From assembly GCA_023247445.1 (NCBI GenBank), contig JAHFGL010000002.1:128553-162603 (forward strand): DNA of 34,051 nucleotides. Direction: 5' to 3'. Both the position numbers and the translations under genes were made by a program. Every line of letters starts with the position of its first letter. Within the stretch, counting starts at the first letter, position 1. The stretch is from Candidatus Omnitrophota bacterium (GTDB lineage: Bacteria > Omnitrophota > Gorgyraeia > Zapsychrales > Zapsychraceae). Of this stretch, positions 5,930 through 28,895 are shown piece after piece. The notes below the pieces were generated by a model. It made no database searches. It worked only from the letters and a program-made list of their open reading frames with translations, and was not told the DNA's origin.

Positions 5930-6550
5930 CTATACTGATTTTTTTCGTCGGAGAAATCCAACGGCTAGTCCACTGCCTAAGAGAGCCATGCTCGCGGGCT
6001 CAGGCACACTTGGAATGTCAGTTGTTATTACGGGGCATGGATTGTCAAAATCATGTGTAACACACCATTCAACAGGACGTCTAATCGATACCGTTGCGCC
6101 ACCTTGGCTTGGTCCTAGATCAAGACCTTGCGCCCAAGCGTAATATCTCCCGTCCGCAGGCACACCATTTGAAGGAACCCATGTTCCAAATAAGAAATGT
6201 AATTTCTCACCAGGGGCAATTTTAGGATCAAACTGCGAGAAAATAACTGGACTCCATACAAAGCCGTAAATATGAGGTCCTGTACCATTAAGCGTTGGCA
6301 GAGAGGCTGAGGCATAAGCTGGTTGCCAATCGGCACCTGTTCCGTAGTATCCTATGGTTTCACCAGCCGTTGAATCGTTGGAGACAGTTGCAAAAAGTGG
6401 AATGCTATCCGTTGGACTAACGACAAAGTGATCTTGATCAAAAACTATGTCCCAGACGAGTGTCGCGTGTGCGTGGTTGGTTAGCATCAATAGGGAAAGG
6501 ATGGTCAGAAGAACGAACTTTGCTGATACTTTGGAAATGTTAGGTTTCAT
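5930..6550 (-). CDS. PEP-CTERM sorted exported protein
   Basis: 206 residues. The N-terminal signal peptide (about 1-29, ending NHAHA) and the C-terminal sorting signal VPEPASMALLGSGLAVGFLR followed by RKK are unmistakable: a PEP motif, a hydrophobic span and a basic tail. In known systems an exosortase (EpsH family) recognises this signal, usually in organisms that make exopolysaccharide. The exosortase itself is not in this window. The central part (about 30-180) is beta-rich and rich in Pro, Trp and Gly, with no recognised domain. The ATG start has only a weak purine-rich binding site. Its end abuts the phosphohexomutase gene. The molecular role beyond surface or biofilm localisation is unknown. 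Confidence 0.85.
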   Translation of the reverse strand: MKPNISKVSAKFVLLTILSLLMLTNHAHATLVWDIVFDQDHFVVSPTDSIPLFATVSNDSTAGETIGYYGTGADWQPAYASASLPTLNGTGPHIYGFVWSPVIFSQFDPKIAPGEKLHFLFGTWVPSNGVPADGRYYAWAQGLDLGPSQGGATVSIRRPVEWCVTHDFDNPCPVITTDIPSVPEPASMALLGSGLAVGFLRRKKSV

Positions 6551-7731: not shown

Positions 7732-10700
7732 ATGTATATATATACATCTAAAAATTTATTTAAAGTATTAAGGCCGGTGGTTTCGTGGCTGTTGTGCGTG
7801 AGCTTTAGCATAACAACCATTATTCCTCCGCAGGCGGCCTATGCCCAGAATTTTTTGTCTCTGCCTTCCCCGGGAACAGTCGTTTCATTAACCCCTGCTT
7901 ACAATCCTGCAATTATCCGTGGGATCACGCTTTATCCCGACAATCCGCTTAAATTCGATTTTATCGTCGATGTTGGTGATGATAATTTGCAAGGCCTGGT
8001 TTTAAAGAAAGAATCGGAGAAGCTGATTAAATATTTTTTAGCTTCGTTAACCGTGCCGGAAAAAGAGATGTGGGTCAATCTTTCGCCATATGAAAAGGAT
8101 CGTATTATTCCACAGAGTTTTGGCAAAACGGAGATGGGCCGGGATTTACTCATGCAAGATTATATGCTCAAACAGCTGACGGCATCTTTGATGGTTCCTG
8201 AAAATTCACTAGGTGAACAATTCTGGCAACGCGTTAGAGCAAAGGTTAAGGAAAAATTTGGCGATGTCAATATTCCAACGGACACTTTTAATAAAGTTTG
8301 GATCATCCCTGACAAAGCGGATGTCTTCGTCAACGATCACAGTATTTTTGTCATTGAAAGTCATTTGAAGGTGATGCTTGATGAAGACTACGTGGCTATC
8401 AGCTCTCAGCCTTCAGCTATCAGCAGCAATCAGCCCACAGCTCAACTGAAAGCTGATAGCAGAAAGCTGACAGCCCCGATAAAAGAATTGCTAAGGGAAA
8501 TAATTATTCCCGAAATCGAAAAGGAAGTTAACGAGGGCAAGACCTTCGCCATGCTTCGCCAGATTTATAATTCGGTGATTCTGGCCACGTGGTACAAAAA
8601 GAATCTGCAGAAAAGTTTGCTCGGCCAGATTTATGTTGATCGCAGCAAGACCGCCGGCGTTGAGAATAATGATCCACAGATGAAGCAAAAAATTTATGAT
8701 CAATATCTTCAGGCGTTTAAACAAGGCGTTTATGATGTTGTTAAAGATGATTACGATCCAGCAACGCAAGAGGTTATTTCCCGAAAATATTTCTCCGGCG
8801 GCGCTGCTTTTAACAAAACACCTGTCAAGGCCTTGACTCTTCCTACTCCGGCTAAGGTACTTCGTTTTATCAGCCGTCCACATGAAACAGAAACTGTTAA
8901 TTTAGCAAAGCTTACTAAAGAGGAAACTCAAGCCGACGTTCCTCTGGCCGATGCGGCGATGCTGACGCTATCGAAGGCGTTTGACGCAATCAGAGAAAAG
9001 CCGCGTGCGGGTAATGGTCAATACTTTACCCAGGCTGCTGATCTACTTGTTGCAAAAATGGAAGAGACTGTCCGCGCCCAGGATCGTGTGGAGCTGACCG
9101 GCGATCAGTTTAGATCTTTAGTTGAAAAGGCGTTACCACACAGAGCCGAGGGAAGAGAATTGCCACTGAGTCCAATATTTGCTAAGGGCTGGCGAGTCTT
9201 TTTGATTAAAGACAGTGCCTATCAACAATCAGAAATTCAAGGCAGTTATTTTGAATATGTTGAATTGTTGGAAAAAGCCGAAGGACTTGATGCGGGTCAA
9301 AACGTTTTATTCTTTCGGGCGCCTGATGAATCAGGAGATATTTATAAAAATTTTATGAAAAGTATTGAAAATTATGACGATGAAAATTGGAGTCCCGGAG
9401 ACATCATTGACTTAAAAGCATATTTTATGGAAGAGATCGGACATTTTGTTGCCTGGCAATCAGCAGTTGTTGGCACAACCCGCACTTTAGAACAAACGAT
9501 TCAGGAAAAATTATCGCAAAAACTTCCCAAAGGTTCTGCGGCATCAGCAACGCATGAAATTATACGCATGATGTTTTATGGTTTGTGGGGGGCAACGTCC
9601 GTGCTCGAGGGAACGTCAAAGAATGCGCGCGAAACGGCGAAAAAAGAATATGGTGCCGTTGTTGATGACGCCTACACCGCGCAGTTTATGTATGTGTTTA
9701 ATCAACGGCCGCCGAGCCTTGATGAAGACAAAGCGTTGCTGGCGCTGAGCACAGAAGAGATTCGACAATACGTTGAGGCTGTTAAAGCAACTCATCCTCA
9801 TTGGAATTGGAATAAGGCGGCGGAAGTTGTTAATGAGGAACTAATTCGCGAGTTAATCGAAGGCATTCAGTTAAGAAATACAAATGAAGCATTGTCCTTT
9901 AAGCGGTCCGTATTAGTGCGAAAGGATCTTCTAGAAATTCTTCGTGATTTAGCTACGGGCAATCTCAAAGACGCAAAAACTCTTTCAGAACGTTTTAGAA
10001 CCATTAACCGTCATTATCTTCTGGGCCTTCGCGGTAATGAGGAGATTTTAAGAACTGAAACAACGTATAGCGATATGTCAGATGATTTTATTCGATCAAT
10101 CGCTGGTATTTTTGATCGCGATGAGAAAGAAAATTTAGCTTACTTTGAAGAAATTCTAAAGAGATTACAAACGTTTTTACAGTTTAACGCCAATATATCG
10201 AAAGAAGATGTGGGACGATTTGTCGCGAAATTTTATGAAGAGTTGATTCGTAGTCAAAATATGTTTGTTAAAGGTAATCATTCGCTCTATGTAAACTTAA
10301 TGAATACCATGCTTCGTTTACACGGTCTTAATGGCGTCAATCACGGTTGGTTGGATATTTTAATTAAAAGTGATTCGATCGATGCCGCTGAATATTTTTA
10401 TGAAGAGATGATTCTAAAACGTAACCCTGAGTTAGCTCAACCTGCTAAGTCGACTTCCGCGCCGGCAAGAGTTGCCGATAGACCGTTTGGTTCAACGAGA
10501 TTTTCGTTTTTTCCATTAGGATTGGGGACGTTGTTTTACGGGCACGAGTGGCCGGTTGGTGATCCTAATTATGTCGAACCAACGCAAGAAGAGGTTGATG
10601 CGCATCTGTTGATGGCCTTTGAGCAGATGCATAACGAACAAGGCATTGTGATGATTGACACCGCCGCCGCGTACAAATGGGGAGAAGAAAAAATTGGGAG

Positions 10701-13700
10701 ATTCTTTGAAACTCACCCAGAACTGCGGTCTCGGGCTTTTATTGCCACCAAGTGGGGACTTGGCGCTGACTTTAAAGAAACGGATTATTCGATGGAGAAT
10801 CTTCTCGATTCTTTTTCCCGAAGTGTTGGACATATGGGCCATGTTGATTTGCTTTATATGCATTTCCCTTCGGTAACGACCTCTGAATCGCTCGAGCCTT
10901 TACGTGAAAGTCATCGTAAAATTGTCGATAGGATGATACGCATGAAAGAACAGCATGAAGGTGAATTGCAATTAATCGGCGTTACCTTTACAACGCCAGA
11001 ACAATTAGAGATGGCCATTAATGAAGGACTCATCAAGGATTTTGATGTCGTGCAGATGTATGCCAAAACATTTTTAGAGCGACCTGATTTGATTGCGAAA
11101 ATACAAGCGATGAACGATGGCAAAGGTAAAGCGATCGTTTTAAATTCACCTTACCGTAAAGCGGCTGATGAAGATAAAGAAGATGCCAAAGAACTTTATC
11201 AAAACATTCTAAGGCAAAAAGGATTCTCAGTTCTTTTAACCGGCACCCGTCATCATTTGCAAGAAACGATTGGTTATCTTGACGAAGCGATGTTGACTAA
11301 AGTTTTACGATTTGATGATAAAGTTAAGACTTTAGAAATTGAAGAAGATGGAGTTATAAGAAAATTAAACTCAATGGGAGGTTCAGGGATTAATGCCATC
11401 TTTGATCTTGGGGATACGGTTATCCGAGTTATGAAAAATGGTGGGAGATATTCTGAACAGCATAAATTTTTTATCCAATCATTAAGTCAAGGCACAGATG
11501 CGCATATTCCAACTTTTATTCGAGATGGTGAAACAGAAGATGGCTTCTATTTTACTGAAATGGGAAAGGTCAGTGGTGTAGTGCTTAATGAATACTTAGA
11601 TCGTTCGTTATCTAGGGAAGAGTTGGATCAGATTAAACAGTTACTAAAATGGCTTATTAAGAATAAGTTGGTTGTAGCCGATGGATTATTTAAACAAGGA
11701 CAGATGATGATAGGACGGGAGGGGGGTAGTCCTCTTTCAAAAGCCTATGCGGTGGATATTGATTTGTTAGGGCGGACAACACGATGGTCGCGGTCCATGC
11801 TGATTGAATCTTATTTAGATGATATTCAACAACGATCACGCAGAAAAATAGATTGGACTAAACTAGATCCAGAAAAAGAAATTAAGAAATATTTGGAGTC
11901 ACTGTTGCAGGATCCTGATTCTCTCGGATCTGATGAAGATCGGGCGATGCTGACCATTAACGATAAAGTTTTTGATATCTTGCATCGATATTTTGGAATC
12001 GCAGGGGATATAACCAAAGCCGACTTGGTAAATATTGTGGAACGATTTAAGAACGATAAAAAAGAATTTAATGATAAGCGTGCTAATGATTTTACGCGTG
12101 AAATTGCTAAGGCAGTTATTGAAGAGGAAGAAATTCCTGAGGCTGTTTTTGGGGCTGAAGAGTTATTAAAAGAAATGAAAGTGGCCGGCGTTTCTCTTTC
12201 ATCGCCCGCGGATGTGACACTCCTTTGGCGTACAAATCCAGATGGAAAAACGCTTGAGCTAGTTGACGCCCGCATTGATGCCGGCGGGACCACGATTAAT
12301 GCCGCGCGGACTTTTGGTTTGCAAGATAAAGGTTATGCTTTTACGTCTCTAACGGGAACTGGTCCAATTCATGATGCCTGGAAAGGAAAACTTTCAAACA
12401 AAAATATTGTGCCATTTCTTATCGCGATGGGATTGTCAGATACAAAAGTTAATGTTCGGCACATTATCGATGATCCAACGGAAAAAGATTCTCTGTTGTT
12501 TATGAATGGAAAAGGCGAACCGATTTCAAAAATTATCCTTGAAGATTTTAAAAAGAGAACCCAAGAGATGATCGCAGGTGATCGTATGCCTCAATTGGAG
12601 TGGTTGATGATGACCGCTGGCGGCGGCATTGTTTTTGAACCAGGAATTGAATCCCATGAAGTTTATGGGTCAATTATTAAGATGGCGCATGATGCAAAAA
12701 AAGAGGTCTTAATTGGTTTTAAAGAAACATCGACTGACAGCGATATGCTGGCTGTTTTAAATGTTCCTCGAGCAGAGCCTCAAGATATTCTTACACCTAC
12801 GGTTGAAGAGTTTATTAAAATGATAAAAGCGGTTTATTTATCTGAAGAAGGAAAAGTATTGGCGCAGGAAGATGAAATTAATATTGAGGAAGTCAAGAAA
12901 TTAAAAAGAGGAAATCTCTTGGTTGCAACAAGATTTGCTGAATATGCCCAAAAACTTATTGCCAGATTTAAATTGAAGGGGATTCTTATTAATCGTGATT
13001 ATCAAGGGATGATTTTTGTTTTAAATGATGGGCAACTTATAGATGGGAATGGGATTAATGTAAAACAAGTTAGTCCTACAGGGGCGCGTGATGCTGCTGC
13101 GGCAGGGTTTTTAATGGCGTTAACAAATGGGAAGGGATATAAAAAGGCTGTTGAATTGGCCAATCTTTTTTGGGCGGCAACGGTGAGATTGCCCGGAAGT
13201 GAAGTGGCAACTCCAGAAGCTCTTCCCAAAATTAAGGAAGAAAGAGATGTCGGATCATTTCGAAGAGTGTTAATCCATGATCTTAAGAATGCTTTGATGG
13301 TACTCGGTGGCTATGCTGAAATGAGGTCAGAGGAAGAAGAATTAATAGCAAAAGAAATGGCAATTGAAATGATGGTAAAAGATATAGCTGAAAGAATGAT
13401 GGATTTATTTTCTACCTTAAAAAATTTAGAACCTTCCCTGGAGATTTTGGCTCAACGCGAAAGTATTAAAAGAAGAGTTTTGCGACTTACTAAGATTATT
13501 AAAAATAAAATTAACCCAAAAGGGATAGAATTGCAGTTTTTGGGGGTACAATCTCGAGGGATTTTAAAGAATTTGAAAAAGATAGAGAGTTTTCTAAACA
13601 TATCAATTGATGGAAGTTTAATGAAAACAAAAGTTGATTTAAATCAGATTATTGAAGATATCGTTGATGACTATAATCTTATTTCCAGAAAAACGAGTGA

Positions 13701-16700
13701 TGACAACACGAAAAGTAAAGATGTTGAATTTGTCCTGGATTTGGATCAAGAGAATGAACTTCTTAGAGAAGCTTCGATTGATCAGTTGGGGTTATCGAGA
13801 GTTATTCAAAATTTGGTTGTTAATGCCCATTTTGAATTGCCTACTAATCGAAAAGGGCGAATTACGATTGCTACACAAATGATTGATCAGAGGCAAGTTA
13901 AAATTACAGTAACAGATAACGGAAATGGAATCGCCCCAGAAAGATTTGAAAAAATTTTTGAGGCTGGAGAATCAACCAAGGGAGAGCAAGGTTCAGGCCT
14001 CGGGCTTTATTCATCACGACAAATTATCGAGGCGCATGGTGGAACGATTCGCGTGGCGGAATCAATCCCTGGCGAGCGAACAACATTTGAAATCATTGTG
14101 CCGATTACAGAGGCTCATGATGAGGCGATGGTGACGTCAGAGCCAGAAAAATTTATTCTAAATCAGATTAAGGAAATGAAACGAGTTATTAATAGTGGAT
14201 CAAGAGATTATCAGCCGCTCTACGATGAAATTAAGTGGAATTTATCGATGAATTTGAGAAGTAAGTTGGAGTCTGCTCAAAAGCGATACGTTAACCCAGA
14301 TAATCCCACGGCGATCATAGATCTTCAGGCTTTCATGGCGATGGGGTTATACATGCTCGATCAAATGCGTCAATTTCCAGAAAATCCTTTTTCCAATAAT
14401 GTATTTGTAGAATTAAGGGAGTTAGTTAATCACTATAACGAACAAAAAGGAGATCACAGTTTCTTCTTAGAGTGGATTTTCTTGTCAGTTCAGTCGGGGT
14501 TTAATGCGGATACAAAAAAAGAACTTGAACTTACGGAGCAATTGCTTAAATTACCATCAGATATTCGAGATAAAATTATTCTATTAGCCTTAATGGATTT
14601 AGGTTGGCATATTTATAGCTTAGGCCAAAATCACATTAAGGCTGATGATGTTCTGGTTGATTTAAAGAAATTTAAATTACTTTTAAAGGCGACCTCCCTG
14701 ATATCGGATACCTCTCAAAAACAAAACATAAAATTGGCCATCGTCCGCATATTAGTTCCAGCCATCAACAGATGGTTTATTAACAGCAGTATCGAGGATG
14801 CCACTTTTGAGCAAATGATTGAAGAAGAAAAGACAAAAGCAGAGATCATTGTTGCGTTGGACTCTCAATTTGGTCTTGATCAAGTGATTTCTTGGATAGA
14901 AGAGGCAAAAGAAAATGATAGTAAAAGTAAAATCCCTCTTATATTCATGGGTAATCCATTAGAGATGGAATTGGGAGATGCTCACGAGAAAATTTTTAAT
15001 CCTTGGGAGGAAGACAGTCAGTATAGTTTGCTTCTTATGAATGAACAGCATGCGGGGCAGCAAAAAGCGGTTGAATATTATTCTAATGCTAAAGAATATT
15101 TGGTGAATCAACGTGCAAGACTAGGCGCTTTTCTTCTCTACAGGCCTATCACGAGAATTAATCAAACGAGGACTCAGTTTCTTAATCATGCAAAACAAAT
15201 TTTTAATTACCCTCAAAGTCCCTACACCTTTCTCCCTAGAGAAAACCTTAATCTTATTACAGTTAATCATGATATTGATAGTCAACATCGCTTTAGTGAT
15301 TTTTCAGTATCCTACTTTGATAAGAGCATAAAAGCATTGGGTAAAAAAATAAGGCAGGTAGTTATCTCTTTTTATAATCAGAGAACCAGAAAAAACGATG
15401 GGGATTTTATTCTAGATTATAAAGATTATCTAAAATTTGTCAGAAGCCATACGATTGATCCACGTATTATTCCTATTAAAGCGGTTTTCTTCGAAGATCC
15501 AACCCATACGATTGTGATCATTGATGACCTAACTCAAGATTATTTTAAGGGAAAGGAAGTCGAATTTCGTAGAGAAGACGGCTTTTTAGTCGAGATGTCG
15601 ATTCGTTTTATGACGGTCTCTGAAGCCATGCAGTATCCTGAAAAATTTAAAGAAGCGATGACATTGAAATCTGACGAAGCGATGGTGACGAGTGCTCGAG
15701 ATCTTGTTGGCGGGCAGTTAAATGATAAATATCTTGAGCGTATTCGGGAAATTATTAATCCGCAAGCCCAGTCACCCCAGAAAAAAGTTGCGCTATATTT
15801 TGGCGGGGCGGCGGATGTTTCAACCGCGCTTCGGGTAACGGAAGCTTCTGATTTAATAATTGTGGATAAGAATTCTTTTTATAGTACTTCATCTAACGTT
15901 CAAACAACTCCAGAATTACGAGAACAAAAAATAAGAGAGTATTTAGCTTACAAAAAAGATGGGGGTTATGGTTCGTATGATCATTTTGAGCAGATGGGAA
16001 TTTGGTTGTATTTAGAAGCAGAATTAAAAATTATGGGAGCGGAAAATATTGCTCTAGAAAATGATGATGCGAACCCACGGCACATTACAATTAACTTTAA
16101 ATGGCAAGGCCAAGAACGGACGTTGCACTATGTTAGTGAAACCAATATTTTTGATGTCGATCAATATAGCCAGTATCTTCGTCAATATGGCGGTGTTGAT
16201 TATTTAATATTGAAAGCATCAGCCTACGGAGCCAGCACACTGGTTTTGAGTCAGTTGCTAGATAGAGTCATTGGAGAATTTCTGAATCTTCAGGGGGCAC
16301 TAATTTCAGATGGAGATCACGGGTTTTCCTTCGAGACAACAGATGAGAAAGTTTTATCTCGAATAGAAGATGATGATCTTGAAAATTTAGAAGATCAGGG
16401 AGCAACGTTTGGTTATGGTAATCGTGCGCTTATTTTTCAAAAGCATGATGCGGCGATGTTGACTGATCGAAGACATTTTACAACGAATCAACATAGCGAA
16501 TATTATGGTCCATTTGTAACAACGGCGGTTAATGTTCTTAAGGCCTTAGAGGAGTCAATTGCAACACCAAAAGAAAAACGAAGTTCGCGTAACGATGAGC
16601 TTGCCGCACGTTATAAACTGCCAGAATTCTTTCACGATAAGTTACATGGTATTGCACAACAAATGATTGATGGCAATACTCCTGCCGCAGGTCGATATGT

Positions 16701-18894
16701 TGCGGGTCAAGGATTTTCTGTAGAAGCGATTCGTAATGTCGCGAATATATTAACCAATCGTGTCGATGAATTTAAAAATATTCGTGCGGAGGTGGACGTT
16801 CATTATGAGATAGCGGCCCAGCAGGGTGTTGCATTGGATCAGGAAACATCGCGGTGGCTTAAGATAGCATTCGCCTATTTACCAATGATCTTGGACCAAG
16901 TTAGGAGCAATGACGATCTTTATAAAATGTTAACTCATGAATCAGATCCTTATTTTACTATTGTCGTCATGAAATGGTTGGGGAATATGGCGGAAATGTC
17001 CAGCGAGCCGGTTATTCAAAATAAAGCTAAAGGTTTTTTGGAATATTTTATTAAACGATATCTGAAAGAGCATAAAGACATTCTTGATTCTTATGCCACG
17101 TTGACGCTGGGCAAAATTAAAAACGCCTATAAACAACATGGGCAAGATCATACGCGCGTCTACACGATGCTGACGGGGGCAGAGCTGTTAGGTTATTTTA
17201 TCCAGAAGAGAGCTGAAAAATTAGGGATGGACATTAATGTTAGAGGGCTTCTACTTACCTTTGCGATGGTTAATAGTTTGCAGCTTGAATATAGAACTCA
17301 GTCAGATTTAGTTGAGCCAAAATTTATGGCTTATTTAAAGATGCAGGGACTATTTGACAATGCCAATGGCCACAGTGTTTTTATTGAAACTGGGTTTCGT
17401 GCGACACTTAATAGTGTTATAAAACCTATCTTAGGAAGATTTGGCATTAGTCAAGATTTTCTTATGTTAACTTATGATCATGACGCGAAAAATCCTCGTT
17501 TCGGTGAAGGGTTAAATGAACAATCTGCTTGGGATTCTCAGGAAGATCGCTTGGGAGAATTCACAATGATTTTTGATGACGGGTTTGAGGCGTCCACCAC
17601 GTCGCCTGTTCGCATCAACGAAAATTTACAGACAGTTGATCTTCTTCCAACGTCGCGTCCATGGATGCATAAAATTATAAAAAAGGAATTAGAAGCGCTG
17701 GCTAATGACACGGCGATGCTGGCCAAGAAGTTGTATAGCAGGATTTTATCTGAGTCGATTGATTTTGACGAGTTATCTGATTCGATGGAAGCTGTTTATG
17801 CTGAATTGGATCGTGTAAAACAAGAATATAAAAGAAATAAAACTAGAAAGAATTTTGTAAGACTCAAGCTTGTCAAGAAATATACAGAATTGGTCGTTAA
17901 TCTGTTTGTTAACATGGAAGCTTCATATGATCGAACGCCCGATTTTGTTGATCATGATCCTGAAGATGATAATGCATTGCTAGGGGAAGAAGATCAAGAA
18001 AGAATTAGTCAGGCTGCGCTTAAATTGGTCAAAGAAATCCGTGATCAAGGCATTGAATTTATTTTTCTTTCAGGAGGGAGTGCGCCTTTGACCCAGACCC
18101 TTTTCGAATCTGCTTGGAAAAGGTTGGATGAATTAGAGGGCATATCAAAGCCTGGTCCTCAGCTCTTTAAGTTTGAAGGGGCCTTAAATTATTTTTATGA
18201 CCGCGCTTCATGGATATTGAAAGACGGGTATTGGATTCCTTTTATGGTTTCGTTGGAAGAAGAAATTATTTCTGATGTTAAGGGAATGACTAGAGAAACA
18301 TGGCAAAGGATAAAAACGGCAAAGGTTATGTATCTTGATGATACGGCTGAATCAGGAGAGAAAATACAATTAGCTAATGATTTTTTTGAATCGGCGGGAT
18401 TTACTTCACTACGCTTAGGTGTTTTTTGGAGTGCTGATAAGGCTTTAAGGGGATGGCAGAAAATTAAAGGTTTATCGGAAAAGATTTATGTTGGAACAAA
18501 TGACGATTTATCTTATAGAAATTTTTATAATTTAGCGAAAGACGTTAGTAAATATTCTTCAAATGATTCGCGTATTATGGAGCAGTTGACTGCTTTAAGA
18601 AATAGAATTGCTGTCACCATGGCTTCAACTCAGAGTCCAGGGGGTATCGATTTAAATCCTAATCGTATTAATTTTAAGACGCACGGGATGATGGAAGATT
18701 TAAATATTCCGTTTGATGCAAGTGCCTTTCAAAATATTGAGATCAATGGTTTTTATCCGGTGATTATTAATATTACACCGACAAGCAATCTACCGCTTCT
18801 ATTGGGAATGAATGATCAGCCTGTTTCCGAGCCGCCTTTAGTAAGCACTAAAGACCCTATATATAATAGGGAAGAGGTTAGCTCATTACGGTAA
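7732..18894 (+). CDS. Giant exported mosaic protein, 3,720 aa, modules joined by a D-x-A-M-[LV]-[TA] tag
   Basis: One uninterrupted frame. Residues 1-39 are a signal peptide (basic start, VVSWLLCVSFSITTII core, AAYA-Q cleavage); no other membrane span is evident. Modules in order: conserved N-terminal domain (about 42-360), helical region (413-900), aldo/keto reductase (924-1183), kinase-like fold (1190-1402), PfkB sugar kinase (1484-1825), histidine-kinase core (about 1840-2129), unknown (2136-2647), Rossmann-like domain (2654-2905), unknown (2912-3325), phosphoribosyltransferase-like (3332-about 3600) and a GGIDLNP C-terminal domain (3637-about 3700). The tag D-x-A-M-[LV]-[TA] begins at D407, D1184, D1403, D2130, D2648, D2906 and D3326, close to module boundaries. 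Several enzyme modules keep their catalytic residues. The layout suggests a polyprotein or a modular scaffold; this is inference. The N- and C-terminal domains recall giant Omnitrophota proteins. No NRPS or PKS domain is present. Confidence 0.88.
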   Translation: MYIYTSKNLFKVLRPVVSWLLCVSFSITTIIPPQAAYAQNFLSLPSPGTVVSLTPAYNPAIIRGITLYPDNPLKFDFIVDVGDDNLQGLVLKKESEKLIKYFLASLTVPEKEMWVNLSPYEKDRIIPQSFGKTEMGRDLLMQDYMLKQLTASLMVPENSLGEQFWQRVRAKVKEKFGDVNIPTDTFNKVWIIPDKADVFVNDHSIFVIESHLKVMLDEDYVAISSQPSAISSNQPTAQLKADSRKLTAPIKELLREIIIPEIEKEVNEGKTFAMLRQIYNSVILATWYKKNLQKSLLGQIYVDRSKTAGVENNDPQMKQKIYDQYLQAFKQGVYDVVKDDYDPATQEVISRKYFSGGAAFNKTPVKALTLPTPAKVLRFISRPHETETVNLAKLTKEETQADVPLADAAMLTLSKAFDAIREKPRAGNGQYFTQAADLLVAKMEETVRAQDRVELTGDQFRSLVEKALPHRAEGRELPLSPIFAKGWRVFLIKDSAYQQSEIQGSYFEYVELLEKAEGLDAGQNVLFFRAPDESGDIYKNFMKSIENYDDENWSPGDIIDLKAYFMEEIGHFVAWQSAVVGTTRTLEQTIQEKLSQKLPKGSAASATHEIIRMMFYGLWGATSVLEGTSKNARETAKKEYGAVVDDAYTAQFMYVFNQRPPSLDEDKALLALSTEEIRQYVEAVKATHPHWNWNKAAEVVNEELIRELIEGIQLRNTNEALSFKRSVLVRKDLLEILRDLATGNLKDAKTLSERFRTINRHYLLGLRGNEEILRTETTYSDMSDDFIRSIAGIFDRDEKENLAYFEEILKRLQTFLQFNANISKEDVGRFVAKFYEELIRSQNMFVKGNHSLYVNLMNTMLRLHGLNGVNHGWLDILIKSDSIDAAEYFYEEMILKRNPELAQPAKSTSAPARVADRPFGSTRFSFFPLGLGTLFYGHEWPVGDPNYVEPTQEEVDAHLLMAFEQMHNEQGIVMIDTAAAYKWGEEKIGRFFETHPELRSRAFIATKWGLGADFKETDYSMENLLDSFSRSVGHMGHVDLLYMHFPSVTTSESLEPLRESHRKIVDRMIRMKEQHEGELQLIGVTFTTPEQLEMAINEGLIKDFDVVQMYAKTFLERPDLIAKIQAMNDGKGKAIVLNSPYRKAADEDKEDAKELYQNILRQKGFSVLLTGTRHHLQETIGYLDEAMLTKVLRFDDKVKTLEIEEDGVIRKLNSMGGSGINAIFDLGDTVIRVMKNGGRYSEQHKFFIQSLSQGTDAHIPTFIRDGETEDGFYFTEMGKVSGVVLNEYLDRSLSREELDQIKQLLKWLIKNKLVVADGLFKQGQMMIGREGGSPLSKAYAVDIDLLGRTTRWSRSMLIESYLDDIQQRSRRKIDWTKLDPEKEIKKYLESLLQDPDSLGSDEDRAMLTINDKVFDILHRYFGIAGDITKADLVNIVERFKNDKKEFNDKRANDFTREIAKAVIEEEEIPEAVFGAEELLKEMKVAGVSLSSPADVTLLWRTNPDGKTLELVDARIDAGGTTINAARTFGLQDKGYAFTSLTGTGPIHDAWKGKLSNKNIVPFLIAMGLSDTKVNVRHIIDDPTEKDSLLFMNGKGEPISKIILEDFKKRTQEMIAGDRMPQLEWLMMTAGGGIVFEPGIESHEVYGSIIKMAHDAKKEVLIGFKETSTDSDMLAVLNVPRAEPQDILTPTVEEFIKMIKAVYLSEEGKVLAQEDEINIEEVKKLKRGNLLVATRFAEYAQKLIARFKLKGILINRDYQGMIFVLNDGQLIDGNGINVKQVSPTGARDAAAAGFLMALTNGKGYKKAVELANLFWAATVRLPGSEVATPEALPKIKEERDVGSFRRVLIHDLKNALMVLGGYAEMRSEEEELIAKEMAIEMMVKDIAERMMDLFSTLKNLEPSLEILAQRESIKRRVLRLTKIIKNKINPKGIELQFLGVQSRGILKNLKKIESFLNISIDGSLMKTKVDLNQIIEDIVDDYNLISRKTSDDNTKSKDVEFVLDLDQENELLREASIDQLGLSRVIQNLVVNAHFELPTNRKGRITIATQMIDQRQVKITVTDNGNGIAPERFEKIFEAGESTKGEQGSGLGLYSSRQIIEAHGGTIRVAESIPGERTTFEIIVPITEAHDEAMVTSEPEKFILNQIKEMKRVINSGSRDYQPLYDEIKWNLSMNLRSKLESAQKRYVNPDNPTAIIDLQAFMAMGLYMLDQMRQFPENPFSNNVFVELRELVNHYNEQKGDHSFFLEWIFLSVQSGFNADTKKELELTEQLLKLPSDIRDKIILLALMDLGWHIYSLGQNHIKADDVLVDLKKFKLLLKATSLISDTSQKQNIKLAIVRILVPAINRWFINSSIEDATFEQMIEEEKTKAEIIVALDSQFGLDQVISWIEEAKENDSKSKIPLIFMGNPLEMELGDAHEKIFNPWEEDSQYSLLLMNEQHAGQQKAVEYYSNAKEYLVNQRARLGAFLLYRPITRINQTRTQFLNHAKQIFNYPQSPYTFLPRENLNLITVNHDIDSQHRFSDFSVSYFDKSIKALGKKIRQVVISFYNQRTRKNDGDFILDYKDYLKFVRSHTIDPRIIPIKAVFFEDPTHTIVIIDDLTQDYFKGKEVEFRREDGFLVEMSIRFMTVSEAMQYPEKFKEAMTLKSDEAMVTSARDLVGGQLNDKYLERIREIINPQAQSPQKKVALYFGGAADVSTALRVTEASDLIIVDKNSFYSTSSNVQTTPELREQKIREYLAYKKDGGYGSYDHFEQMGIWLYLEAELKIMGAENIALENDDANPRHITINFKWQGQERTLHYVSETNIFDVDQYSQYLRQYGGVDYLILKASAYGASTLVLSQLLDRVIGEFLNLQGALISDGDHGFSFETTDEKVLSRIEDDDLENLEDQGATFGYGNRALIFQKHDAAMLTDRRHFTTNQHSEYYGPFVTTAVNVLKALEESIATPKEKRSSRNDELAARYKLPEFFHDKLHGIAQQMIDGNTPAAGRYVAGQGFSVEAIRNVANILTNRVDEFKNIRAEVDVHYEIAAQQGVALDQETSRWLKIAFAYLPMILDQVRSNDDLYKMLTHESDPYFTIVVMKWLGNMAEMSSEPVIQNKAKGFLEYFIKRYLKEHKDILDSYATLTLGKIKNAYKQHGQDHTRVYTMLTGAELLGYFIQKRAEKLGMDINVRGLLLTFAMVNSLQLEYRTQSDLVEPKFMAYLKMQGLFDNANGHSVFIETGFRATLNSVIKPILGRFGISQDFLMLTYDHDAKNPRFGEGLNEQSAWDSQEDRLGEFTMIFDDGFEASTTSPVRINENLQTVDLLPTSRPWMHKIIKKELEALANDTAMLAKKLYSRILSESIDFDELSDSMEAVYAELDRVKQEYKRNKTRKNFVRLKLVKKYTELVVNLFVNMEASYDRTPDFVDHDPEDDNALLGEEDQERISQAALKLVKEIRDQGIEFIFLSGGSAPLTQTLFESAWKRLDELEGISKPGPQLFKFEGALNYFYDRASWILKDGYWIPFMVSLEEEIISDVKGMTRETWQRIKTAKVMYLDDTAESGEKIQLANDFFESAGFTSLRLGVFWSADKALRGWQKIKGLSEKIYVGTNDDLSYRNFYNLAKDVSKYSSNDSRIMEQLTALRNRIAVTMASTQSPGGIDLNPNRINFKTHGMMEDLNIPFDASAFQNIEINGFYPVIINITPTSNLPLLLGMNDQPVSEPPLVSTKDPIYNREEVSSLR
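7855..8830 (+). other. Giant protein module 1: conserved N-terminal domain after the signal peptide
   Basis: Residues about 42-360. Landmarks: SLPSPGTVVSLTPAYNPAII, VNLSPYEKDRIIPQ, EMGRDLLMQDYMLKQLTASL, FNKVWIIPDKADVF, then EIEKEVNEGKTFAMLRQIYN and ISRKYFSGGA at the end. I associate this domain with exported proteins of Omnitrophota, where it follows a signal peptide and precedes very variable sequence. Its function is unknown. It is interrupted at about 222-248 by a repeat-derived low-complexity insert. The first joint tag (D407) follows. Confidence 0.6.
8395..8474. repeat. AGCTGATAGC-type palindromic repeat inserted in-frame in the giant gene
   Basis: The stretch is made of iterated GCTATCAGC / GCTGATAGC units. 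GCTATCAGC occurs at 8395-8403 and 8416-8424, and its exact complement at 8452-8460, followed by a related AGAAAGCTGACAGC. It encodes a Ser/Gln/Ala-rich run (ISSQPSAISSNQPTAQLKAD, about residues 223-242) that breaks an otherwise well-ordered domain between DEDYVA and IKELLREIIIPE. The frame is kept. It is unrelated to the GGGACACGTAC palindrome. Confidence 0.75.
8968..10500 (+). other. Giant protein module 2: helical region with a Fic-like patch
   Basis: Residues 413-923, between the first tag and the aldo/keto reductase. It is mostly alpha-helical and without a confident family. FVKGNHSLYVNLMNTMLRLH (845-864) resembles the GN(H/G)R loop and following helix of Fic-type proteins, but the catalytic His of HPFxxGNGR is absent, so an active Fic enzyme is unlikely. 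EEIGHFVAW (567-575) is another conserved-looking patch. A Pro/Ala/Ser-rich linker (about 905-915) precedes the next module. Confidence 0.35.
10501..11298 (+). other. Giant protein module 3: aldo/keto reductase
   Basis: Residues 924-1183. The TIM-barrel NAD(P)H oxidoreductase fold is recognisable from LGLGTLFYG (929-937), IDTAAAYKWGEEKIG (from 975), FIATKWG, VDLLYMHFPS, IGVTFTTPEQL and the cofactor-loop strand LLTGTRHHLQETI. The catalytic tetrad of the family is complete: D976, Y981, K1007, H1044. The module ends directly at the second tag (D1184-T1189). An active reductase with an unknown carbonyl substrate is likely; why it sits inside a protein with a signal peptide is unclear. Confidence 0.85.
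11299..11937 (+). other. Giant protein module 4: protein-kinase-like fold, probably degenerate
   Basis: Residues 1190-1402, bounded by two tags. It starts with a glycine-rich loop (SMGGSGINAIFDLGDTVIRV, from 1214) and a TVIRVMKNG strand where kinases carry the ATP-binding Lys. YFTEMGKVSG follows as a hinge-like segment, then VVADGLFKQGQMM and YAVDIDLLG at the places of the catalytic and DFG loops. The key Asp/Asn pattern is not canonical, so an inactive or divergent kinase (aminoglycoside-phosphotransferase-like superfamily) is the best guess. Confidence 0.4.
12181..13215 (+). other. Giant protein module 5: PfkB-family sugar kinase
   Basis: Residues about 1484-1827. It has the ribokinase-fold landmarks: DAGGTTINAARTFG (substrate-side GGxxxN motif), LMMTAGGGIVFEP, EVLIGFKET, and the C-terminal ATP/anion-hole motif VSPTGARDAAAAGFLMAL with the catalytic base at D1787. 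The usual GAGD is GARD here, a change beside the catalytic Asp that could alter activity. The closest look is to 1-phosphofructokinase/tagatose-6-phosphate kinase types. A helical linker (1409-1483) separates it from the tag at D1403. Confidence 0.8.
13249..14136 (+). other. Giant protein module 6: histidine-kinase catalytic core
   Basis: Residues about 1840-2129, ending at the tag D2130. The dimerisation/phosphoacceptor box HDLKNALMVLGG has H1849. The HATPase_c domain carries the N box (NLVVNAHFEL, 2027-2036), the G1 box (DNGNGI, 2062-2067), a phenylalanine segment (RFEKIFEAG) and the G2 box (GSGLGLY, 2087-2093). All catalytic boxes are present. No sensor or receiver domain is attached, and there is no transmembrane helix nearby. 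The segment looks more AT-rich in codon choice than modules 3 and 5, which hints at a separate origin. Confidence 0.88.
14137..15690 (+). other. Giant protein module 7: unknown region
   Basis: Residues 2136-2647, between tags D2130 and D2648. The first half is helical, repeat-like and Leu/Lys-rich. The second half is mixed alpha/beta (VVISFYNQRTRKNDGDFILD, IPIKAVFFEDPTHTIVIIDD). Just before the tag there is a decayed copy (K-E-A-M-T-L at 2640-2645), also encoded with GCG-ATG. I recognise no family. Confidence 0.5.
15691..16464 (+). other. Giant protein module 8: Rossmann/methyltransferase-like domain
   Basis: Residues 2654-2905, cleanly bounded by tags. It opens with a strand and glycine-rich turn, KVALYFGGAADVSTAL (FGGAAD at 2690-2695), followed by LIIVDKN, the order expected for a Rossmann nucleotide-binding fold with an acidic residue at the end of the second strand, as in class I methyltransferases. 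Later strands include VDYLILKASA and GALISDGD. No methyltransferase NPPY-type motif is seen, so the fold is suggested but the activity is not. Confidence 0.45.
16465..17724 (+). other. Giant protein module 9: unknown region
   Basis: Residues 2912-3325, between tags D2906 and D3326. It has a long helical first part (about 2912-3190), then an alpha/beta part with SVFIETGFRATLNSVI and FTMIFDDGFEASTTSPV. I recognise no family. The boundary with the last module is the tag variant D-T-A-M-L-A. Confidence 0.45.
17725..18894 (+). other. Giant protein module 10: phosphoribosyltransferase-like domain plus GGIDLNP tail
   Basis: Residues 3332-3720. IEFIFLSGGSAPLTQTLF and VMYLDDTAESGEK (3532-3544) match the first strand and the PRPP-binding loop (hydrophobic-D-D-x-x-x-[ST]-G) of type I phosphoribosyltransferases. 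The C-terminal piece starts at GGIDLNP (3637-3643) and runs into GFYPVIINITPTSNLPLLLG. I recall this tail at the end of other Omnitrophota exported proteins, so it may be an anchoring or secretion tail; that role is not established. Confidence 0.55.
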
Positions 18895-19012: not shown

Positions 19013-20560
19013 ATGAGTGAAGATAAACAATCAGCCATGGCCGAGATGTACCGCGTTACATTTCGAGACATTATGGAAGGAGAAATCGTTAAAGGTCGCA
19101 TCGTTGCTTTTAACCAAAAGGAAGCTGTTGTTGATATTGGTTTTAAGTCCGAGGGATTTGTAGCGATTGAAGAATTCCGTAATATGGATAATTTCGCGAT
19201 CGATAGCGAAATTGAAGTTTTAATTGAATCAATTGAAGATGATCAGGGACGTCTAATTCTTTCCCGCACAAAAGCCGAAAAGCTAAAGGGATGGATGAAG
19301 ATTGGCGACACTATTAAGGAAGGCGATGATGTTGAAGGTCGTATCCTTAAACAAGTCAAAGGTGGATTTATTGTTGATGTTGAAGGGGTCGAGGCCTTTT
19401 TGCCTCTTTCTTTATCAGCCTTTAAAGGTGTAGCCGCCTCAGAGATCATGACTAACAAATATAGATTTCAGATTGCCAAATTAAACAAACCACGCCGTAA
19501 TCTTATTCTTTCCCGTCGAGAAGTTGTTCAAAAGGAAAGAGAAGTTGTTCGTGATAAACTTTGGACAGAACTTGCCAAGGGTCAAAAGCGAACTGGTTTT
19601 GTTAAGGGCATCACAGATTTTGGCGCCTTTATTGATTTAGGTGGCGTTGATGGGTTGCTTCATATTACTGATATGAGCTGGACACGTATTAATCATCCAT
19701 CAGAGATTGTTTCGGTAGGACAAAGACTTGAAGTTCTTATTTTGGATTTTGATAAAACAAATTCCAAGGTATCTTTAGGTCTTAAACAAATTGTCGACAA
19801 TCCTTGGACAGATATTTATGCCAAATATCCAACGGGCACCAAGGTTAAAGGAAAAATTGTTAATGTTATGCCTTATGGGGTTTTTGTTGAGATTGAACGA
19901 GGCATTGAAGGCCTTTTACACTCTTCCGAGATCACTTGGCAGAAAAAGTTAGTTAATCCGCAAGAAATGTTTAAAGTTGGCGATGAAATCGAGGTTCAGA
20001 TTATCAACGTCGACAAAGATTCAAAAAGAATCTCTTTAAGTATGAAACAGTTAGAAACCAACCCTTGGTTAGAAGCTGGAAAGAGTTATCCTATCAATTC
20101 AAGCGTTAAAGGCAAGGTTCGTGGATTTACCGATTACGGCGCCTTTGTGGAACTCGACTCTGGTTTAGAAGGGATGATCCACATCTCCGACATGTCTTGG
20201 ACAAGAAAAATTAATCATCCCCAAGATGTCCTACAAAAAGGGCAAGATGTTGAGGTTATTGTCTTAGCCATTGATTCAGAAAATCGCAAGATTAACTTGG
20301 GACTCAAGCAACTTTCATCTAACCCCTGGACTAAGATTGCTGAAGAATATCCTGTGGGCATCGAGATTGAATCTGAAGTTGTTTTAAATTCTAATTTTGG
20401 TGTTTTTGTCAAATTAGGCGATGATATTGAGGCCTTGGTTTATTCTTCTGAAATCGATAAAGAAAAGGCAGAGAAATTAAAGCCAGGTGATAAGCTTAAA
20501 GTTAGAATCATCAAGGTTGATATCGAGCAGATGAAAATTGGCGTCAGCGCTAAAGTCTAG
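19013..20560 (+). CDS. rpsA: 30S ribosomal protein S1
   Basis: 515 residues. S1 binds mRNA at the 30S subunit and helps initiate translation. Six S1 (OB-fold) domains are visible in tandem. Their signature strands are GEIVKGRIVAFNQKEAVVDI, VEGRILKQVKGGFIVDVEG, GFVKGITDFGAFIDLGGVDG, KGKIVNVMPYGVFVEIERG, KGKVRGFTDYGAFVELDSG and IESEVVLNSNFGVFVKLGDD. The first two are the divergent, ribosome-binding pair; domains 3-5 carry the strong G(F/V)F-LLH-SD core. Length fits the six-domain form found in many Gram-negative phyla. It has its own promoter at 18917-18944 and is followed by a strong hairpin. It lies just after the giant gene on the same strand. Confidence 0.96.
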   Translation: MSEDKQSAMAEMYRVTFRDIMEGEIVKGRIVAFNQKEAVVDIGFKSEGFVAIEEFRNMDNFAIDSEIEVLIESIEDDQGRLILSRTKAEKLKGWMKIGDTIKEGDDVEGRILKQVKGGFIVDVEGVEAFLPLSLSAFKGVAASEIMTNKYRFQIAKLNKPRRNLILSRREVVQKEREVVRDKLWTELAKGQKRTGFVKGITDFGAFIDLGGVDGLLHITDMSWTRINHPSEIVSVGQRLEVLILDFDKTNSKVSLGLKQIVDNPWTDIYAKYPTGTKVKGKIVNVMPYGVFVEIERGIEGLLHSSEITWQKKLVNPQEMFKVGDEIEVQIINVDKDSKRISLSMKQLETNPWLEAGKSYPINSSVKGKVRGFTDYGAFVELDSGLEGMIHISDMSWTRKINHPQDVLQKGQDVEVIVLAIDSENRKINLGLKQLSSNPWTKIAEEYPVGIEIESEVVLNSNFGVFVKLGDDIEALVYSSEIDKEKAEKLKPGDKLKVRIIKVDIEQMKIGVSAKV

Positions 20561-20608
20561 TCGTTTATACAGCCTCTGTATAAATAATTTATAAAATCAA
20601 TTCTTTTT

Positions 20609-20641
20609 GCACCTTCCCTATATATAGGGAAGGTGCTCTTT
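20609..20641 (+). terminator. Intrinsic terminator after rpsA, abutting tyrS
   Basis: Perfect 28-nt palindrome (20609-20636: GCACCTTCCCTATA and its complement) followed by TCTTTTT. It ends 12 nt before the tyrS ATG and contains GGGAAGG, the only purine-rich sequence near that start. It may therefore terminate rpsA transcripts and also influence tyrS initiation. Confidence 0.75.
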
Positions 20642-20648
20642 TTCTCAT

Positions 20649-21815
20649 ATGGATATTCAAAATATTATCCAAACTATTTCTCGCGGAACTACAGAGATTA
20701 TTAGCGTAGACGCCTTAGAGAAAAAGTTATCCGCCAGCCAAAAAAACAAAAAACCTCTTCGTGTTAAAGCCGGATTTGATCCAACGGCCCCAGATATCCA
20801 TTTGGGCCATGTCGTTTTACTGCGTAAATTAAGACAATTTCAAGACCTGGGACATCAAGTTTTCTTTTTGATTGGTGATTTCACGGCCCAAATCGGTGAT
20901 CCAACCGGACGCGATCAGCTCCGCCCAAAATTAGACCGAAAACAAATCGAGAAAAATGCAAAAACTTATAAAGATCAGGTTTTTAAGATTTTAGATCCAA
21001 AGAAAACAGAAGTAGTTTTTAACAGCGAGTGGTTAGGAAAACTATCTCCGTATGAGGTTTTAGAACTGACTAAATATTCGACGGTGGCGCAAATGTTAGC
21101 GCGCGCGGATTTTAAAAAGCGTTACGAGGAGAAAAAAGAAATTAGTATTTTGGAATTTATCTATCCTTTGCTACAGGGATACGATTCAATTCATCTAAAG
21201 GCTGATATTGAGTTAGGTGGTTCCGATCAGAGATTTAATCTTTTGATGGGACGACAGTTACAGGAAATTTGTGATCAAGCGCCTCAAGTTGTCATTATGA
21301 CACCGCTTTTAGAGGGAACAGATGGTGTTCAGAAAATGAGTAAGTCGTTGGGCAATTATATCGGCATTAATGAGGACCCAAAAGAAATTTTTGGCAAGAT
21401 TATGTCGATTACAGATGAACTGATGTATAAATATTTTGAGTTTTTGACGGATTTGGATTTGGTAAAGATAAAAACATTGCATCCTAAAGAGGCTAAATTA
21501 TTGTTAGCGCAGAAAATTGTTGAGCAATTTTATGATAAAGATTTAGCGCAGAAAGCCAAAGATAATTTTGAAAAAACATTTAGTCAGGGGCAGACCCCGG
21601 ATGAAATTTTAGAATATAAGTTAACTAATAGCACAGCCGAAAAATTGTTGGATGTTTTGTTGTCGCTTAAGCTGGTTGAGTCAAAAAATGAAGTGCGCCG
21701 GTTGATTAAACAGGGGGCGCTTAGTCACGACGGTGAAAAGATCAGCGATGAAAATTGGCCCCTTAAAAAGGGTGTTTTAAAGCTCGGCAAACGCCGTTTT
21801 TTGAGGTTATTTTAA
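20649..21815 (+). CDS. tyrS: Tyrosyl-tRNA synthetase
   Basis: 388 residues. A class I synthetase that charges tRNA-Tyr with tyrosine. The HIGH motif is HLGH (51-54), inside the family block [27 protein letters not shown] is the tyrosine/tRNA contact block, and the KMSKS loop is intact at 229-233. The C-terminal 60 residues form the S4 RNA-binding domain ([20 protein letters not shown]). This is the TyrRS type with KMSKS and [16 protein letters not shown] (TyrZ-like) rather than the E. coli type. The ATG gives the usual N-terminal length, but no free Shine-Dalgarno is seen because the only candidate lies within the upstream hairpin. Confidence 0.95.
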
Positions 21816-22069
21816 GATTTTTGAAGAGCTGTAACTGCAGTAATTGCGCCTAATTATATTCGAAAAATAATGAAAATAATTTCTTGACAAGAAAAAATAA
21901 TTAGTTATACTTGACTAACTTGTCGTGACTGGACTGATTTCTATTATAAGAGAAGGACGTCAGCAGGGCTTTTTAAATAACAAATTTGCCCCTGCCCTGA
22001 CTTATCTGGAAAATGTATTGTTGAAGTCAGGACTGGGTCATGCCTCTCTAAAAAATATTATGGAAGCAT
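21816..22069 (+). promoter_or_regulatory. Leader region with promoter for the tRNA-Thr/rpmG/secE cluster
   Basis: A 254-bp gap without a gene. TTGACA (21884-21889), a 16-bp spacer and TATACT (21906-21911) form a near-consensus promoter. Transcription would start near 21918, leaving about 150 nt before tRNA-Thr. That leader holds an imperfect hairpin (GTCAGCAGGGC near 21959 against GCCCCTGCCCTGAC near 21988). A short open frame from 21925 runs into the tRNA and is not considered a gene. Confidence 0.65.
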
Positions 22070-22142
<73 letters not shown>

Positions 22143-22193
22143 TAAATTAATTCGCAGTAAACAATAACCCTAAAACAATCAAGACTATAAATC

Positions 22194-22346
22194 ATGCGCG
22201 AACCAATCCAATTTGAATGTACCGAATGTCGACGGATCAATTACAGTGCGACAAAAGATAAGAAAAAAACTCCTGCACGTATTGAGGTTAAGAAGTTTTG
22301 TCGTTTTTGCCGTAAACATATTCTCCATCGAGAACTAAAAAAATAA
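22194..22346 (+). CDS. rpmG: 50S ribosomal protein L33
   Basis: 50 codons from the ATG at 22194 to TAA. The product begins MREPIQFECTECRRINYS and ends HILHRELKK. It has the bL33 pattern, with two Cys pairs (C9/C12 and C36/C39) forming the zinc ribbon of the Cys-containing (C+) form. L33 is a small protein of the large subunit near the E site. It lies between tRNA-Thr and tRNA-Trp, a classic place upstream of secE-nusG. No elongation factor Tu gene precedes it here, unlike in many bacteria. Confidence 0.93.
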   Translation: MREPIQFECTECRRINYSATKDKKKTPARIEVKKFCRFCRKHILHRELKK

Positions 22347-22362
22347 CCTAGAGGAAAGCTCT

Positions 22363-22436
22363 AGGCCTGTAGCTCCAATTGGTAGAGCGATGGTCTCCAA
22401 AACCATGCGTTGTAGGTTCGAGTCCTACCAGGCCTG
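22363..22436 (+). tRNA. tRNA-Trp (anticodon CCA)
   Basis: Cloverleaf: acceptor AGGCCTG/CAGGCCT, D arm GCTC/GAGC, anticodon stem ATGGT/ACCAT with loop CTCCAAA (anticodon CCA), variable GCGTT, and T arm GTAGG-TTCGAGT-CCTAC. 74 nt with discriminator G, the Trp identity base; CCA is not encoded. It sits 15 nt before secE. Confidence 0.96.
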
Positions 22437-22451
22437 CGAGGATTATTAAAA

Positions 22452-22637
22452 ATGTTTTCTGGTATTCGAAAATTTATTGGCGAAGTAACTAGCGAGCTCA
22501 AGAAAGTATCTTGGTCAACACGTAGCGAAGTTATTGAAGCGACATGGGTCGTTCTAACCAGCACCGCGCTTTTAGGTATTTTTATAGCGACTGTCGATTT
22601 TACTTTGGCCAAGTTTATAGGAGTGATCATTAGGTAG
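22452..22637 (+). CDS. secE: Preprotein translocase subunit SecE
   Basis: 61 residues. SecE is the clamp subunit of the SecYEG channel in the inner membrane. The conserved cytoplasmic amphipathic helix (IRKFIGEVTSELKKVSWSTR) is followed by one transmembrane helix (about 29-58, ATWVVLTSTALLGIFIATVD). This short, single-span form is the common one outside the gammaproteobacteria. It is directly between tRNA-Trp and nusG, with 5 nt to the latter, as in most bacteria. Confidence 0.95.
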   Translation: MFSGIRKFIGEVTSELKKVSWSTRSEVIEATWVVLTSTALLGIFIATVDFTLAKFIGVIIR

Positions 22638-22642
22638 AGGAT

Positions 22643-23185
22643 ATGACTGAGACGACTGATATGAAATGGTATGTAGTTCATACCCAAACAGGATCTGAAG
22701 AAAAAGCCAAAGCTGGTTTGGAAAGCAAGATGGCCGCCACCGCGCTAAAGCAGTATATCGGTGAAATTATTGTTCCAACTGAGCAGGTTTCTGAAATTCG
22801 AAGCGGGAAAAAACGTATCACAGAACGTAAATTTTTTCCCGGATATATTTTGATTAGAATGGTGATGACCAAAGAGAGTTGGTATTTGGTTAAAACAACA
22901 CCAGGCATCACAGGATTCATCGGTCCAGGACACAAGCCTACCCCGATTTCTGCTGATGAAGTTAATGCTATTTTAAAACGAACGGTTGATACAGAGACAA
23001 AGCCTACCCCGAAAATTACTTTTGATATTGGAGAATCGATGCGTATCGCCCAAGGGCCATTCGCGAATTTTAATGGTCAAGTTATGGAAGTTTATCCTGA
23101 ACGTGGGAAGCTCAAGGTCAGCGTTTCCATTTTTGGTCGATCAACGCTTGTTGAATTAGAATATTGGCAAGTAGAAAAATTATAA
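22643..23185 (+). CDS. nusG: Transcription termination/antitermination factor NusG
   Basis: 180 residues. NusG binds RNA polymerase, suppresses pausing and links it to Rho or the ribosome. The NGN domain (about 7-115) has WYVVHTQTGSEEKAKAGL, the FFPGYILIRM strand and TTPGITGFIGPG. The KOW domain (about 125-180) has GESMRIAQGPFANFNGQVME. A second in-frame ATG at residue 7 (MKWYVVH) could be the real start; the first is kept because AGG lies at the end of the secE-nusG gap. Neighbours and order are canonical. Confidence 0.96.
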   Translation: MTETTDMKWYVVHTQTGSEEKAKAGLESKMAATALKQYIGEIIVPTEQVSEIRSGKKRITERKFFPGYILIRMVMTKESWYLVKTTPGITGFIGPGHKPTPISADEVNAILKRTVDTETKPTPKITFDIGESMRIAQGPFANFNGQVMEVYPERGKLKVSVSIFGRSTLVELEYWQVEKL

Positions 23186-23194
23186 AGGACGATC

Positions 23195-23620: not shown

Positions 23621-23621
23621 A

Positions 23622-24832: not shown

Positions 24833-24833
24833 C

Positions 24834-25256: not shown

Positions 25257-25284
25257 CGGGTTTTAGTAATTCGTAACCCGTTAT
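25253..25284 (+). terminator. Hairpin at the rplL stop codon, possible attenuator or RNase site
   Basis: Perfect 10-bp arms ATAACGGGTT (25253-25262) and AACCCGTTAT (25275-25284) with a 12-nt loop. The first arm includes the rplL stop codon. There is no T-run after it, so it is not a classic terminator. In E. coli the same rplL-rpoB gap holds an attenuator and an RNase III site, which makes partial termination or processing plausible here. Confidence 0.5.
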
Positions 25285-28894: not shown

Positions 28895-28895
28895 T

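Follow-up and report, generated by a model that had tools for sequence, protein, structure and literature searches.

A single reading frame of 3,720 residues in a Candidatus Omnitrophota genome joins modules that have little to do with one another, and a six-residue tag, D-x-A-M-[LV]-[TA], recurs along it. Does this tag mark where the chain is cut, where it is bound, or where it was once assembled? We addressed this question for the window, which is the whole stretch of 34,051 nucleotides analysed here, and for relatives of the protein in 55 related genomes and in a wider sample of the phylum.

A giant reading frame and its tags

Re-translation confirms the coordinates and the length that the first-pass annotation had given for the frame. 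Its parts, in window positions, are:

7732..18894, +, giant ORF of 3,720 aa, member of the Omnitrophota giant family with N-domain and C-domain (ORF translation and family comparison)
7732..7845, +, Sec-type signal peptide, likely cleavage after AYA, residue 38 (by eye; hydrophobic stretch, then a near-invariant A-Q in alignment A1)
7846..8802, +, conserved N-domain, residues 39-357, terminating in YFSGG (present in 52/55 relatives)
8950..8967, +, tag 1, DAAMLT, residue 407 (motif scan)
9727..9744, +, looser tag DKALLA, residue 666 (wider motif, enriched in giants of the same genome)
10516..11157, +, aldo/keto reductase module, residues 929-1142 (Pfam stretch; homologue within a G020 giant)
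11281..11298, +, tag 2, DEAMLT, residue 1184 (motif scan)
11311..11907, +, kinase-like module, residues 1194-1392 (relative in giant L076 of G021; without Pfam match)
11938..11955, +, tag 3, DRAMLT, residue 1403 (motif scan)
12211..13242, +, PfkB / hexose kinase module, residues 1494-1837 (profile match)
13591..14118, +, histidine kinase core, residues ~1954-2130, with HATPase_c at 2017-2126 (profile match)
14119..14136, +, tag 4, DEAMVT, residue 2130, 4 residues past the end of the HATPase profile (motif scan)
14137..15672, +, cargo between tags 4 and 5, without Pfam match
15673..15690, +, tag 5, DEAMVT, residue 2648 (motif scan)
15691..16446, +, module common to the window giant and giant L018, tag-bounded at both ends in both (30% identity, E 9e-30)
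16447..16464, +, tag 6, DAAMLT, residue 2906 (motif scan)
16465..17706, +, cargo between tags 6 and 7, without Pfam match
17707..17724, +, tag 7, DTAMLA, residue 3326 (motif scan)
17968..17985, +, looser tag DNALLG, residue 3413 (motif scan)
18640..18891, +, conserved C-domain GGIDLNP...GFYPVIINITPTSNLPLLLG and variable tail (alignment A2)

Profile matches bear out the aldo/keto reductase, PfkB and histidine kinase modules named at first reading. The module called kinase-like aligns with that of L076 at 24% identity over 229 columns (E 4e-7), and the Rossmann-like call finds its one support in a paralogue in another giant. For the phosphoribosyltransferase-like call at residues ~3330-3640 Pfam gave no support in the window protein. 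An AF2 model of the stretch holding tags 5 and 6, made from a single sequence, has a pLDDT of 40 and is unusable.

The motif D.AM[LV][TA] occurs exactly seven times in the protein, at the residues and nucleotides first reported, compared to 0.009 copies expected from composition (P ~1e-18); in 2000 shuffles the maximum was one copy. The two looser copies fit D-x-[AS]-[ML]-[LVFM]-[TSAG], and the core of the tag is D-x-[AS]-M. A genome-wide search for the tag in its DNA form gives 19 matches, mostly in giant genes (contigs C10, C23, C67 and C68), with 1 match for the reversed control. The giants of this genome, taken as 12 ORFs or fragments with 23,128 residues in total, contain 34 copies of D.AM where 2.8 are expected. 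As the counts lie far above composition, shuffles and reversed control, a chance motif is rejected. The genome also holds a true chance copy, NMDEAMLDS in a MetH-like protein.

Conserved ends and variable cargo

The window protein belongs to a large and apparently undescribed family of Omnitrophota giants with a common architecture, in which a Sec-type signal and an N-domain of ~320 residues are followed by variable cargo and a C-domain of ~70 residues. In alignments the N-domain, with its terminal YFSGG, is 43-64% identical to members in other genes and genera. Up to 45 matches per genome were found in the 52 related genomes that carry it. Within the same order 17 of 18 genomes have the domain, as do some other families of the class, and across the phylum sample it was found in 42 of 145 genomes. 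Its distant homologues in the class are likewise giant ORFs (967-3785 aa), and the named relatives among those listed are all Candidatus Omnitrophota, Omnitrophica or Aceula. Family ORFs are mostly 1,000-6,000 aa long. The hydrophobic start and the near-invariant A-Q are conserved, as judged by eye, across 35 aligned members; we infer export from this signal and its conservation. At the protein end stands the C-domain, with the consensus GGIDLNP...GFxPVIINITPxxNLPLLLG. Sequence searches of Pfam, NCBIfam and PDB gave no match for the N-domain, nor did a PDB sequence search for the C-domain. A structure model of the N-domain reached a pLDDT of 77 and a pTM of 0.71, and Foldseek returned no meaningful fold match for it (best E 0.49).

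From these comparisons the window giant appears to be one of ~10 giant, probably exported polyproteins in its genome. An assembly artefact is rejected, since the frame, the tags and the N- and C-domains were found again in many independent genomes. Some giants are split at contig ends: the end of L060 and the start of L019 have 50 identical residues, and the end of L059 and the start of L020 have SYGWEIVDR in common. Single contigs therefore underestimate the true number and length of giants.

Between the two end domains lie ordinary enzyme and signalling modules, several independent ones per frame, as seen from Pfam and NCBIfam domains in 16 giants. Apart from the modules listed above, the cargo of other giants includes adenylate kinase, phosphoribosyltransferase, low-molecular-weight phosphatase, Fic-like, NDK, acyltransferase, MutS domain V, acyl-CoA dehydrogenase, ThiG, WD40, HPr, protein kinase, receiver, phosphoglucomutase, class-I aldolase, TIM, FBPase, glutamate dehydrogenase, PPDK and PGI modules. 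These are extra copies of ordinary enzymes. The ADK of the window genome is also present as a standalone gene, and the genomes with a TIM module (G002, G014, G026, G027, G038 and G050) each have a standalone TIM as well, which scores ~330-350 bits versus 22-228 bits for TIM in giants. With standalone copies present, the idea that essential enzymes reside solely in giants is rejected for ADK and TIM. For PGI, G004 (79% complete) has the giant copy only. The PGI in giants (G004, G007, G019, G022) belongs to a longer type, whereas the standalone PGI of these genomes is short; the giant copies retain the GGRYSxWSAxG signature, with FDQWGVELGK in G022 and one further isolate. The TIM module of G050 is apparently intact (NWK, GHSERR, AYEPIWAIGTGK), and the second TIM copy of G002 is apparently dead (LMYQPSW). 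Glycolytic second copies were seen in probably exported giants for both PGI (L065, L241, L242) and TIM (L086, L246, L247), some of them with all catalytic residues and others degenerate. The window genome itself (G000, 95.6% complete) has no PGI family match; most relatives have a standalone PGI. Cargo turnover is fast, as just 1 other genome of the 55 has a strong match to the window aldo/keto reductase, also inside a giant.

By sequence comparison, modules reappear elsewhere as tag-bounded units in the company of other modules. In L018, the counterpart of the module between tags 5 and 6 is bounded by DEALLA and DEALVT and is followed by the C-domain. The aldo/keto reductase ends in IGYLDEAMLT in the window and in IGYVENNDVDLAILS in the G020 homologue, and the next modules differ. 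The kinase-like module is preceded by DEAMLT in the window and by DTSILS in G021.

Tag position, tag forms and the level of selection

At first reading, copies 2, 4, 5, 6 and 7 had been placed at module joints. We find that all seven, not five, lie outside recognised domains, with copy 3 between the kinase-like and PfkB modules and copy 1 downstream of the N-domain. We compared 116 tags in 16 giants with Pfam domains to the domain envelopes. A single tag makes contact with an envelope, right where ThiG borders on WD40, compared to 17.8 expected, and in 5000 runs of random placement there were never fewer than 4 tags inside envelopes. The suggestion that tags sit at joints rather than within folds is thus strongly supported. 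Closeness to Pfam edges is marginal (median distance 90 versus 123 residues, P 0.05), because much of the cargo is not recognised by Pfam. Tags cluster at both end domains, lying in the 45 residues after YFSGG in 48 of 119 cases (11.7 expected) and just upstream of the C-domain in 47 of 109 (9.9 expected); in the window genome a tag stands upstream of 8 of the 9 C-domains. The residues flanking the tags are polar. Not every module joint bears a tag.

The form of the tag differs between lineages. The window genome uses D.AM[LVF][TS], or D-x-[AS]-M-[LVF]-[TS], G023 uses D.AM[TA][TA], G004 D.AM[TAS], G008 D.AMV, and some lineages D.SM. S-S-P-[VIL] occupies the same kind of place in G022, G025, G026, G039, RS_10_7 and RS_8_54, and in distant families of the class, with 13 copies in a G168 giant and 7 in a G103 giant. 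Its carriers include L235 (G168), L238 (G103), L086 (G026), L089 (G039) and L065/L066 (G022); in L089 a tag stands directly before two receiver domains (KKILVVDD). Few or no tags of either form were found in several genomes, for example G003, G034, G038 and G044, which implies that the tag is lineage-specific and not universal. Either the code is non-universal or further tag forms went unrecognised. A switch of form by lineage is what one would expect if the site has to match a factor.

The first-pass annotation had left a choice between a processing site and a scar of module shuffling; the evidence favours a signal at the protein level and disfavours a DNA scar. The tandem modules of G023 giants retain D, A and M at 14 of 17 joints, while Ala is encoded by GCC 6, GCT 4 and GCG 4 times and the Asp codons split 7 to 7. 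The upstream flanking columns are only 29-57% conserved there and the linkers diverge. In G023 and USDV202 alike, tag codons vary freely and the residues are constant. The conserved Ser of the SSP tag in RS_10_7 and RS_8_54 is encoded by AGY as well as TCN codons. At the DNA level the information lies within the 18 bases of the tag, and the flanks carry almost none; the conserved site beyond the coding tag and the symmetric or flanking bases that would mark a DNA cassette array were not found. With D, A and M retained against changing synonymous codons and flanks, it is the residues themselves that are selected.

Codon use in the window genome has a feature of its own. Tag Ala codons there are GCG in 33 of 42 cases, GCA in 9, and never GCT or GCC; GCG makes up 25% of Ala codons in giants (Fisher P 1.7e-13). 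The preference for GCG before ATG is partly general, as it occurs in 15 of 33 non-tag AM pairs. GCG, CTG and GAC are over-used in the tags of the window giant, L015, L018, L019, L020 and L058, and several other genomes are without bias. Protein-level selection does not explain this bias, which could stem from tagged modules having been copied recently, or from an effect on translation. An internal translation start at the tag ATG is rejected, as no ribosome-site signal lies upstream.

Readings of the tag and known systems

The reading that we favour, at a little short of an even chance, is that these are exported polyproteins whose tags are recognised and most likely cut by a lineage-specific factor, so that the modules are freed. 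Sec would export the giant chain, and the tags would be cut by a factor that recognises them, most likely a protease for processing that co-evolved with the tag. Outside the cytosol, the modules would then be released as individual enzymes, stripped of the N- and C-domains. Because the cargo consists of fast-changing second copies of metabolic and signalling enzymes, these probably act in the envelope or on a nearby cell rather than in the central metabolism of the cell itself. Release is favoured by the excess of tags, their avoidance of domains and clustering at the end domains, the retention of D, A and M, and lineage switching. The modules that keep an end tag beside different neighbours, the extra-copy nature of the cargo and the PGI signatures kept point the same way, and processed bacterial surface polyproteins provide a precedent (PMC5266723). 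Against release count the genomes with few or no recognised tags, the untagged joints, and degenerate cargo such as the second TIM of G002, which can be explained without it. Caspase-like processing is rejected: in a search of this one peptidase class, C14 peptidases were absent from all 55 genomes. A broader proposal sees a general Omnitrophota export system in which a conserved frame carries exchangeable enzyme cargo, a dedicated protease reads a cleavage code whose form depends on the lineage (D-x-[AS]-M or S-S-P-[VIL]), and a second enzyme set is delivered outside, possibly to a host or prey cell; in this generality we hold it to be unlikely.

The main rival to cleavage holds that the tag is a short linear motif which stays uncut in the linkers and serves for docking or assembly, with a scaffold, the envelope or another giant as partner. 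The chain would then remain in one piece outside the cell, as a multi-enzyme or structural array. Protein-level selection and the linker position fit such a site equally well. Adhesin-binding motifs lie between the domains of gingipain polyproteins (PMC5266723), and the accessible text of PMC10066038 proposes adhesion or a coat for Omnitrophota giant proteins. However, the tags beside both conserved end domains and the independence of the modules are more simply explained by release, and S-S-P-[VIL] has little in common with D-x-A-M as a binding epitope. Docking is thus possible, if on the improbable side. A scar or recombination site left in the DNA by module shuffling, without protein function, could explain why modules recur between tags with different neighbours and why GCG dominates the tags of the window genome. 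Free codons with fixed residues in G023 and USDV202, 18 informative bases between silent flanks, and Ser codons of AGY as well as TCN type make it a distinctly improbable account, and the GCG bias is in part the general one before ATG. We give slightly less credence still to a gene-fusion fossil, in which the Met would be the old start codon of captured genes, passively kept. A signal-like hydrophobic stretch does follow 12 of 310 tags, compared to 1.3% at random positions (P ~9e-4), a lipoprotein-type signal, MLTGRSLLLGIALSGLLTVFGGGCSS, follows a tag in L058, and a G039 tag lies just upstream of the KKILVVDD of receiver domains. Yet D and A before the Met are as conserved as the Met itself, SSP tags have no Met, and the ribosome-site signal is missing upstream. 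L058 has internal twin-arginine-like (SRRDFGRGSLL) and lipoprotein-like signals at residues ~260-300 and ~729-760, the second of which begins at a tag Met.

Should the tags prove to be cut, an entire bacterial order would export many enzymes through one signal peptide, as virus-style polyproteins and by a new mode of protein delivery, and the giant proteins of an abundant uncultured phylum would gain a first functional handle. The lineage-specific code makes the partner factor searchable. Even uncut, a family with up to 45 copies per genome and fast-changing cargo would be a main investment of small genomes.

Gingipain precursors of Porphyromonas gingivalis (RgpA, Kgp) are cut into domains (PMC5266723). 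Among bacteria, gingipain/HagA polyproteins offer the best precedent for cutting as well as for binding motifs in linkers, with a signal peptide, a long conserved N-terminal region, several domains, inter-domain motifs and domain rearrangement (PMC5266723). The Omnitrophota giants similarly combine a conserved N-terminal export signal, judged by eye, with several modules and a recurrent inter-module site. Gingipain/HagA polyproteins, however, come from few genes, contain adhesin and protease domains only and are cleaved at Arg/Lys by their own protease domains, whereas the giants reach 45 genes per genome, carry unrelated metabolic enzymes and have a different tag; the likeness seen is one of architecture. 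Giant ORFs of the same phylum, including the Velamenicoccus archaeovorus giant protein, are also very long, poorly conserved overall and presumed extracellular according to the accessible text of PMC10066038. That text describes them as adhesin- or coat-like, >20 kb long and with transmembrane helices, and mentions no conserved N/C frame, enzyme cargo or tag. The window ORF (11.2 kb) and the longest family member seen (~6,000 aa) fall below the >20 kb of the giant ORFs of Seymour et al. 2023. A search of the open-access literature, with subscription papers and preprints outside its scope, found no description of the tag or of Omnitrophota polyproteins. Polymorphic toxin systems also pair a conserved export frame with exchangeable cargo, but the cargo of the giants is internal, multiple and mostly of housekeeping type, with a conserved C-domain behind it. 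In viral polyproteins the cleavage, the protease and the stoichiometric need have been shown. They resemble the giants in placing several unrelated proteins in one frame with short, repeated, lineage-varying sites at the joins, whereas the giants are chromosomal and lie near housekeeping genes.

In the window a small protein with a PEP-CTERM sorting motif (5930-6550, - strand) adjoins the giant gene. Housekeeping genes follow the giant at 19013-33824: an S1-domain protein, a class I tRNA synthetase (Trp/Tyr type), tRNA-Thr and tRNA-Trp, and further downstream ORFs that resemble nusG, ribosomal proteins, rpoB and rpoC in size and sequence.
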